From: Desertivirga xinjiangensis
GTDB lineage: Bacteria > Bacteroidota > Bacteroidia > Sphingobacteriales > Sphingobacteriaceae
Direction of reading: 5' to 3'
DNA: 64,000 bases
Assembly: GCF_024436435.1 (NCBI RefSeq)
Contig: NZ_JAFMZP010000011.1
Span: 62,001-126,000 of the forward strand
Positions 5,138-45,089 of the stretch are shown here, piece by piece. The notes beneath the pieces were generated by a model. The model worked only from the letters and a program-made list of their open reading frames with translations, searched no databases and was not told the DNA's origin. Numbering within the stretch: position 1 is the stretch's first letter; every line of letters starts with the position of its first letter. The translations under genes and the position numbers were made by a program.

Positions 5138-5315
5138 GGATCAAGCGGAAAGATTGTGGGCTAAGCATGTTAAGGCCGATCGTCATGCCGTCCTGAATCA
5201 AGTTCAGGATCCGGCACCTCTTGAATTGTGTGCATGAGGCCCTGTTTAAACAAGAGGTCCTGAAACAAGTTCAGGATGACCAAGAAAGAAAGCCCCCAAC
5301 TTTTACGCTTGACCC
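5138..5315 (+). mobile_element. MITE-like element, copy A
   Basis: Non-coding 178-bp element. The left end GGATCAAGCGGAAAGATTG (5138 on) and the reverse complement of the right end (5291-5315) agree at 20 of 25 positions, forming terminal inverted repeats. The 8 bases outside each end, GGGATCTT (5130-5137) and GGGACCTT (5316-5323), agree at 7 of 8, as expected for an aged target duplication. Inside are two 19-base palindromes, TCCTGAATCAAGTTCAGGA (5191-5209) and TCCTGAAACAAGTTCAGGA (5258-5276). The element at 44253-44445 is a second copy in the opposite orientation. Together with plain flanking sequence it fills the 4938-5333 gap. Confidence 0.8.
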
Positions 5316-44093: not shown

Positions 44094-44167
44094 TCCTGAG
44101 TAGCTCAGCCGGTTAGAGCATCTGACTGTTAATCAGAGGGTCGCTGGTTCGAGCCCAGCCTCAGGAG
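44094..44167 (+). tRNA. tRNA-Asn (GTT), copy 1
   Basis: 74 bases. The acceptor TCCTGAG pairs with CTCAGGA (44160-44166), with discriminator G. The anticodon arm TCTGA-CTGTTAA-TCAGA gives GTT at 44128-44130; the T arm is GCTGG-TTCGAGC-CCAGC. CCA is not encoded. Its upstream region (GAATATTGCAGTCCCAAAACA) is repeated in slightly changed form before copy 3. Confidence 0.97.
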
Positions 44168-44168
44168 C

Positions 44169-44197
44169 AAACCCCCACAAGCCCGTGGGGGTTTTTA
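44169..44197 (+). terminator. terminator of tRNA-Asn copy 1
   Basis: ACCCCCAC (44171-44178) and GTGGGGGT (44185-44192) with loop AAGCCC, then a T run. Confidence 0.88.
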
Positions 44198-44252
44198 TTT
44201 TACAGGATTTCCGTAGCCGGGGAGAATGATTGATCAAGCTGATGGCAAAATG

Positions 44253-44445
44253 GGATCAAGCGGAAAAGTTGAGGGATGTTCTTTCCTTCGTCATCCTGAA
44301 CTTGTTTCAGGACCTCTTGCTTAAGCATGTCCTTTATAGTCCAAGTGTTGCCGAATCCTGAACTTGATTCAGGATCGGCATGACGACCGTTTTAAAAAGT
44401 TTGGCACTAATACGCTTAGCCGCCCCCAACTTTTCCACTTGATCC
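44253..44445 (-). mobile_element. MITE-like element, copy B
   Basis: 193-bp non-coding element, the reverse complement of copy A at 5138-5315. The ends GGATCAAGCGGAAAAGTTG and GGATCAAGTGGAAAAGTTG (right end, reverse strand) match at 21 of the first 23 positions. It is flanked by an exact 8-bp direct repeat, GCAAAATG (44245-44252 and 44446-44453), the mark of transposition. Two 19-base palindromes lie at 44294-44312 and 44356-44374. No coding capacity, so it would need a transposase from elsewhere. Confidence 0.88.
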
Positions 44446-44453
44446 GCAAAATG

Positions 44454-44740
44454 ATATAGAGATTGGAGATTTTTTACAATAAATAACACCATTAAGATAT
44501 ATGTTTGATTTAACGGAAATGTAATGCCTGGAAAGTTCGAGATCACTGCTAGTAGTCCGGTTTCTATTAACCTATCCGGCAAGGGGTGTTCGTTCTCAAA
44601 TTTGTGGATACTAAGAAGAATGAAACAATTCACCAGAGTAAGGTAATTCTTCATTAATAAATTTTAAGAAAGCCTCTTGCTTTTATAGGGCAAGGGGCTT
44701 TAATTTTTTTAGGAGTTCGCGGTAGTGAATTGGTCGACAG
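44454..44740. other. intergenic sequence between MITE and tRNA-like gene
   Basis: No supported gene. A hairpin AAGCCTCTTGC / GCAAGGGGCTT (44670-44700) with a following T run (44701-44710) looks like an orphan terminator. A minus-strand open frame runs from here into the MITE and is not believed. Confidence 0.5.
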
Positions 44741-45008: not shown

Positions 45009-45082
45009 TCCTGAGTAGCTCAGCCGGTTAGAGCATCTGACTGTTAATCAGAGGGTCGCTGGTTCGAGCCCAGCCTCAGGAG
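45009..45082 (+). tRNA. tRNA-Asn (GTT), copy 3
   Basis: 74 bases, identical in all stems to copy 1, anticodon GTT at 45043-45045, discriminator G45082 followed by CCA. The 13 bases before it (AATTGGTCGACAG) are shared with the tRNA-like gene at 44741, so the two arose by tandem duplication. Confidence 0.97.
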
Positions 45083-45089
45083 CCAAAAT

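Follow-up and report, generated by a model that had tools for sequence, protein, structure and literature searches.

The window, by which we mean the whole stretch of 64,000 nucleotides analysed here from Desertivirga xinjiangensis, holds a tRNA-Asn cluster in which a short mobile element, copy B of a MITE family, has inserted (Table 1). An earlier, sequence-only reading had set copy B beside this cluster, and the annotation agrees: there are two intact genes and one defective copy, the latter probably a tRNA pseudogene that lost one base. The insertion lies 56 bp past the T-run of the terminator-like hairpin that follows the first tRNA-Asn gene. The order of a kinase gene and tRNA-Asn is kept in both congeners (2/2), in which the spacer past about position 44203 does not align.

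That reading had also described an exact 8-bp duplication at both ends of a 193-bp element with ends matching at 21 of 23 positions, and both descriptions proved correct. The first 23 bases of copy B are the reverse complement of the last 23 at 21/23 positions, GCAAAATG abuts the element on either side, and no transposase gene lies inside, for which 193 bp would be too short. Its designation as a MITE is upheld by these inverted ends, the 8-bp duplication, the missing transposase gene and ends held in common with autonomous elements. A mechanical ORF of 106 aa (44334-44654, minus strand) crosses from the spacer into the REP-bearing part of copy B, and REP-derived ORFs of this sort could end up annotated as spurious proteins.

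Table 1. Positions of the mobile elements, their parts and the neighbouring tRNA genes; plain numbers refer to the window, numbers after a C to other contigs of the same genome
Feature	Position	Strand	Remarks
MITE copy A, older subfamily	5138..5315	-	18/23 ends, 7/8 duplication GGGATCTT/GGGACCTT
Intact tRNA-Asn	44094..44168	+	3' end 84 bp upstream of copy B insertion
Hairpin then T-run after tRNA-Asn, intrinsic-terminator-like	44170..44196	+	
Left target site duplication GCAAAATG	44245..44252	+	abuts copy B directly
MITE copy B	44253..44445	+	193 bp, without transposase gene
Left terminal inverted repeat GGATCAAGCGGAAAAGTTGAGGG	44253..44275	+	21/23 against right end
First CGTC-tagged REP (CGTCATCCTGAACTTGTTTCAGGACC)	44289..44314	+	likeness to the description in the available part of PMC3733652
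Second, inverted CGTC-tagged REP of head-to-head dimer	44349..44385	-	sequence and folds
Right subterminal stretch with TAAGC, like ISAon1 3' end	44405..44422	-	IS end comparison
Right terminal inverted repeat GGATCAAGTGGAAAAGTTGGGGG, minus-strand reading	44423..44445	-	
Right target site duplication GCAAAATG	44446..44453	+	abuts copy B directly
tRNA-Asn copy with defective anticodon	44741-44814		ARAGORN tRNA-???; Rfam 55 bits against 70 for intact ones
Second intact tRNA-Asn	45009-45085		
IS4-type element or fragment in MITE palindrome tip	L059 (C3:48364-49938), L076 (C23:7143-7624), L024 (C26 start)		ACTGTTGTCCGG/TTTACCGG-type ends, at or near GAATTGAATTC

The MITE family and its REP interior

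A search of the genome with the element gave 49 matches, and the pattern of its terminal inverted repeat (TIR) occurred 48 times at up to 2 mismatches, with 0 occurrences of the backward control. The family comprises 28 loci in this genome, according to a list compiled by hand; solo ends, the pair at C4:135223 and a 148-bp pair of ends at C20:622 that lacks a REP are not among them. The C20 pair (C20:622-769, L260) consists of facing ISAon1-type ends with neither a REP interior nor a matching duplication, and is perhaps another type of MITE or a deletion relic. In the stretches of this genome that were fetched a script listed 17 TIR pairs, of which 16 are distinct and one pairs C3:48364 in an alternative way. 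Ten of the 16 are flanked by an exact 8/8 duplication without offset, its sequence differing from pair to pair; the others comprise one exact duplication with a 2-base offset, three at 7/8, one at 6/8 and one at 2/8, the last of which, at C4:135223 near the end of contig C4, looks spurious. When flanks were deliberately mispaired, the distribution peaked at 2-3 matches and reached 7/8 in three mispairings and 8/8 in one, the latter expected because the C3 row was doubled. The 8-bp duplication of the MITE copies is thus not a matter of chance, and a target duplication of fixed length is present in many copies (10/16 at exactly 8 bp), as is usual for MITEs. Bacterial MITEs as portrayed in the available portion of a review (PMC10969869) are likewise short, multicopy, bounded by TIRs and duplications, and devoid of a transposase; a whole-word search of that text returned neither 'tRNA' nor 'ISL3'.

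The sequence-only reading had taken copy B to be younger than copy A, and the comparison with a family consensus supports this, with 3 substitutions in 193 positions for copy B against 39 in 173 for copy A. Thirteen of 17 aligned copies went into the consensus, those omitted being copy A, its relatives C21:136 and C22:89619, and C25:154059; since copy A and its relatives were excluded, the distances date subfamilies as much as single insertions. Independently of the consensus, the ends (21/23 in copy B, 18/23 in copy A) and the duplications (8/8 and 7/8) point in the same direction. Both subfamilies have the same inner structure.

That inner structure is a head-to-head dimer of CGTC-tagged palindromes at element positions 37-133. 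It agrees with the CGTC REPs of Di Nocera et al. 2013 (PMC3733652), which, in the part of that paper available, have the tag, a stem of about 8 bp, a 5-base loop and a head-to-head dimer; in sequence and folds the interior conforms to the type as defined there (the tag, a stem of 8-9 bp starting with AT, a loop of 4-5 bases and head-to-head dimers), although in the first REP of copy B the first stem pair is a mismatched A/C and CTC follows the first stem where a CCA-like tail is described. The whole element folds with z-scores of -6.3 as RNA and -7.4 as DNA, values to which the long inverted ends contribute. Across the genome the REP pattern has 120 sites at up to 2 mismatches (control 0), and among 77 exact sites listed, 22 lie inside MITE copies as counted by eye.

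Five related dimers without MITE ends stand alone elsewhere in the genome, and 139 of 398 other genomes of the taxonomic family match part of the element. Most of the matches listed cover 25-40 bp of the first palindrome and a few about 90 bp of the dimer; none of those listed spans the whole element, in a search that scored two candidates per genome and could therefore have missed a full-length MITE elsewhere in the family. The composite TIR+REP pattern had 0 matches in the contigs of other genomes, and the TIR pattern 0 in viral contigs. These solitary dimers and partial matches would be expected if copy B were a repeat of the REP/REPIN type that a tyrosine transposase (RAYT) mobilises, its outer inverted repeats being incidental. 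We regard this as very improbable, and rejected a RAYT as the mobiliser, since Y1_Tnp has 0 matches in this genome; moreover, duplications of 8 bp together with conserved ends of 19 bp are the signature of a DDE transposase, and all five stand-alone dimers inspected are without MITE ends. According to the available part of Di Nocera et al., CGTC REPs apparently have no dedicated transposase and are not associated with transposase genes, whereas the dimer here is enclosed by DDE-type ends and duplications; as a likeness, that paper also reports CGTC-1 dimers of H. neapolitanus inside 41-bp palindromes (PMC3733652). The MITE is a vehicle that has copied CGTC REP dimers, and it leaves the stand-alone dimers unexplained.

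The palindrome is itself a target. On contig C3 a resident IS4-type element with a DUF4372 transposase (C3:48576-49505) lies between intact left and right MITE ends, an arrangement in which the transposase ORF might be taken for that of the autonomous parent. We consider this almost certainly wrong, and rejected the element as parent, since it is nested: ends of its own (ACTGTTGTCCGGTAAA...) bound it, and its 11-bp duplication, GAATTGAATTC, falls within the MITE palindrome, whose uninterrupted form is seen in the copy at C25:108543. Its ORF also stops at 310 aa, against 387-394 aa open in several relatives, and the same type of insert occupies the same palindrome tip in the MITE copy at C23:7143 and at the start of contig C26. 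The MITE/REP palindrome is thus an insertion hot spot, with which the report of REPs as IS targets in the accessible part of PMC1525189 fits.

Autonomous ISAon1-family elements

The 19-bp end pattern, at up to 1 mismatch, occurs in 40 of 398 other genomes of the taxonomic family (41/399 with the genome of the window) and was found in neither of the two congeners (0/2), by exact search or at up to 1 mismatch. Several family genomes have two such ends facing each other about 1.4 kb apart, with transposase ORFs between them. The match is exact at one end of the element in genome G030, whose other end is 3 mismatches off the pattern; in G112 and G057 each of the two ends is 1 mismatch away from it. 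In these three genomes and G233 the ORFs match NF049916 and NF049917 far above the cut-offs: the first corresponds to NF049916 (ISAon1 upstream protein) and the second to NF049917 (ISAon1 transposase) and Pfam DDE_Tnp_ISL3 (PF01610). The four larger proteins score 150-162 bits on NF033550 (ISL3 family), below its cut-off of 180, and pass that of PF01610, so we call them ISL3-like rather than ISL3. Exact 8-bp duplications flank 4 of 7 two-ended elements in the family genomes (TAATTTTA, ATTGAAAT, TTTATACT and AAAGTCAA) and none was found in the other 3. The earlier suggestion that an 8-bp duplication narrows down the transposase family is supported and made specific: the ends of the autonomous elements identify the family as ISAon1/ISL3-like.

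For a broader sample we used a scan of named genomes with aligned transposases, from which 80 of 438 relatives were listed; the titles listed include Pedobacter, Flavobacterium, Algoriphagus, Dyadobacter, Bacteroides and Dysgonomonas, all of which we take to be Bacteroidota. A first pass at finding the element ends in 65 of the 80 loci had extended them too far (duplication of 8 bp in 17, 6 bp in 3, 4 bp in 1, 7 bp in 1, 12 bp in 1, none in 42) and was replaced by anchoring at GGATCA or GGGTCA. Anchoring placed no ends in 13 of the 80 loci, and a further 15 that lay at contig edges or Ns were set aside; the remaining 52 were each counted as a separate insertion regardless of relatedness, also when from one genome (e.g. 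L230/L232 and L257/L258). An exact 8-bp duplication was present in 27 of the 52, in a count that presupposes the end motif and leaves the duplication length free from 4 to 10 bp. Three more match at 7 of 8 positions, one has exactly 7 bp, none has 4, 5, 6, 9 or 10 bp, and L187 has a 12-bp repeat, these 7-bp and 12-bp cases being among the 25/52 loci without an exact 8-bp duplication.

The elements and the MITE also agree inside their ends. Of 53 IS 3' ends, 32 contain TAAGC, against 0 of 52 5' ends (about 1 expected after shuffling). These ends came from 46 of the 52 loci, supplemented from other genomes by seven 3' ends and six 5' ends; Ns were present in one 3' end. In the MITE, TAAGC lies at a comparable place in the right end. 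As read from the sequence, the motif would mark where the transposase gene stops (NIYA-stop). Apart from the ends and this TAAGC stretch we found no clear sequence common to the MITE and the fetched IS ends, and the likeness of the left ends is weak. ISAon1-family IS (NF049916 and NF049917; PF01610) thus resemble the MITE in their GGATCA... ends, 8-bp duplication, 3' TAAGC and class of target, and differ in being about 1.4 kb long with a transposase, whereas the MITE has no transposase gene and carries the REP dimer.

Taken together with the position of the insertion, copy B is in all likelihood a non-autonomous MITE derived from an ISAon1-family (ISL3-like) IS, mobilised in trans and inserted past the tRNA-Asn terminator. 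An IS ancestor would have lost its transposase gene and kept both terminal inverted repeats and a short piece of its 3' end, with a CGTC-tagged REP dimer carried between the retained ends. An ISAon1 transposase would recognise the GGATCAAG...GTTG ends and excise or copy the element, and, acting in trans, would cut the target with an 8-bp stagger and join the element to it; mobilisation by this enzyme is suggested because ends and duplication length are common to both. Insertion in the tRNA-Asn 3' flank, just past the terminator, would fall in the class of sites that the autonomous elements also prefer.

The elements sharing ends with the MITE are those of other family genomes; no intact ISAon1 transposase was found in this genome with a transposase query and the PF01610 profile, the sole find being a decayed remnant at C25:108772-109044. 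Beside it the MITE at C25:108543 sits in a solo TIR-like stretch (GATCGAGCGGAAAAGTTGGGG, with one CGGAAAAG), a site that serves as a paralogous empty site. The idea that this MITE lies inside the relic's own TIR was rejected, as that TIR, read from the sequence, is a different variant (GGTCAGTACCAAAATCTGTGG). ISAon1-type ends are also found in tandem or nested at L119, L120 and L112 in other genomes and at L010 and L011 in this one, e.g. by insertion at CGGAAAAG within a TIR-like stretch, an apparent case of self-targeting. With a decayed relic alone, the MITE family has probably lost its mobility here, barring an intact copy in an assembly gap or one acquired from outside; the assembly has 26 contigs, some starting near such repeats, which leaves room for an unassembled intact ISAon1 copy.

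Insertion in the 3' flanks of stable-RNA genes

The tRNA-Asn neighbour of copy B is not incidental and belongs to a pattern; the sequence-only reading had contained neither this target preference nor the REP cargo. A tRNA occurs in the flanks of 27 of the 52 ISAon1 insertions, and in 27/27 the 3' end of the nearest one faces the IS, at 60-126 bp in 20 of them. The IS occurs in both orientations, with tRNAs found on one side of the transposase gene or the other. Rfam, applied to 32 of the 52 loci (the 20 with a near tRNA being left out), adds a 5S rRNA at 79-102 bp in four, another at 166 bp, and one tmRNA at 65 bp. In all, 25/52 insertions follow a tRNA, 5S rRNA or tmRNA gene at 60-126 bp, and 32/52 have a stable RNA facing the IS within about 400 bp.

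The MITE behaves in the same manner, 8 of its 28 loci being 66-100 bp downstream of a stable RNA. Five follow tRNA genes (Asn at 84, Arg at 79, Pro at 90, Leu at 68 and Glu at 89 bp), one follows RNase P RNA at 66 bp, and two lie 84 and 100 bp past a 5S rRNA end, these 5S ends being cut by contig starts, uncalled by Rfam and recognised by likeness to the 5S end of L115. Two further loci have facing tRNAs at 168 and 351 bp, and 20/28 are farther than 130 bp from any recognised stable RNA. Solo ISAon1-type ends without a MITE interior were seen about 78 bp past tRNA-Lys (C23:180474, L048) and about 69 bp past tRNA-Phe (C11:38869, L259).

A tRNA was present at 36 of 80 ISAon1 loci, compared with 1/30 IS4/DUF4372 control loci, 0/23 REP-only loci of the family and 0/5 REP-only loci of this genome. 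Fisher's test gave p of about 1e-5 each for ISAon1 against the IS4/DUF4372 and the family REP-only loci, a comparison that is inexact since control loci span about 3 kb and ISAon1 loci 3-5 kb, the IS4 flank being short on one side; both control sets are small. Rfam found no further stable RNA in the controls it covered (20 of 30 IS4-type and 20 of 23 REP-only loci). The distance peak at 60-126 bp is independent of the control comparison.

Between the stable-RNA gene and the insertion there is usually a hairpin with a T-run, and the insertion lies at a median of 47 bp past a scored terminator-like site (37 sites). The 20 loci without a counted stable RNA have such a site in 12 of their 40 flank windows, while the figure for windows 560-1000 bp away is 6 of 185; this is a weak indication of terminator enrichment, as the distant windows are expected to be mostly genes. 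At L207, one of these 20, Rfam gave a weak tRNA match of 31.7 bits, facing the IS at about 107 bp, which was not counted.

The chief competitor to a choice of target by the transposase is survival, in which closeness to stable RNAs would reflect persistence in a harmless site. Intergenic 3' flanks are safe landing places, and the A+T preference at the centre of the duplications is weak. We hold this to be rather unlikely: the 3' flanks of protein genes are far more numerous than those of stable-RNA genes, and it would account poorly for so many IS loci facing a stable RNA, for the clustering of their distances, and for the near absence of tRNAs from the two small control sets. On balance we favour, with reservation, the view that ISAon1 transposases choose stable-RNA 3' flanks past the terminator and that the MITE has spread CGTC REP dimers by this route. 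Recognition may be of the terminating transcription complex or of terminator DNA, or there may be a bias towards strongly transcribed 3' flanks.

Among the matches listed from the open-access literature (titles and abstract starts) we found no report of the stable-RNA preference or of this MITE, and a search of that literature for the name ISAon1 found no matching paper. Elements on the 3' side of genes are known from other systems, namely Tn7 at glmS, group IIC introns at terminators and TRE3 of Dictyostelium downstream of tRNA genes. These are like ISAon1 and the MITE in their position downstream of a gene or terminator and differ in machinery, ISAon1 elements having one DDE protein and a small upstream ORF. 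The outcome is comparable to that of the tRNA-linked retrotransposons of eukaryotes.

Our analysis names, from sequence alone, the likely mobiliser of a MITE family. It also offers one concrete way in which CGTC REPs, reported in the part of the literature available to us as being without a dedicated transposase, may be copied round a genome. The MITE itself is of a known kind; the surprise lies in how strongly a widespread IS family of the Bacteroidota prefers to insert in the 3' flanks of tRNA, 5S rRNA and tmRNA genes.
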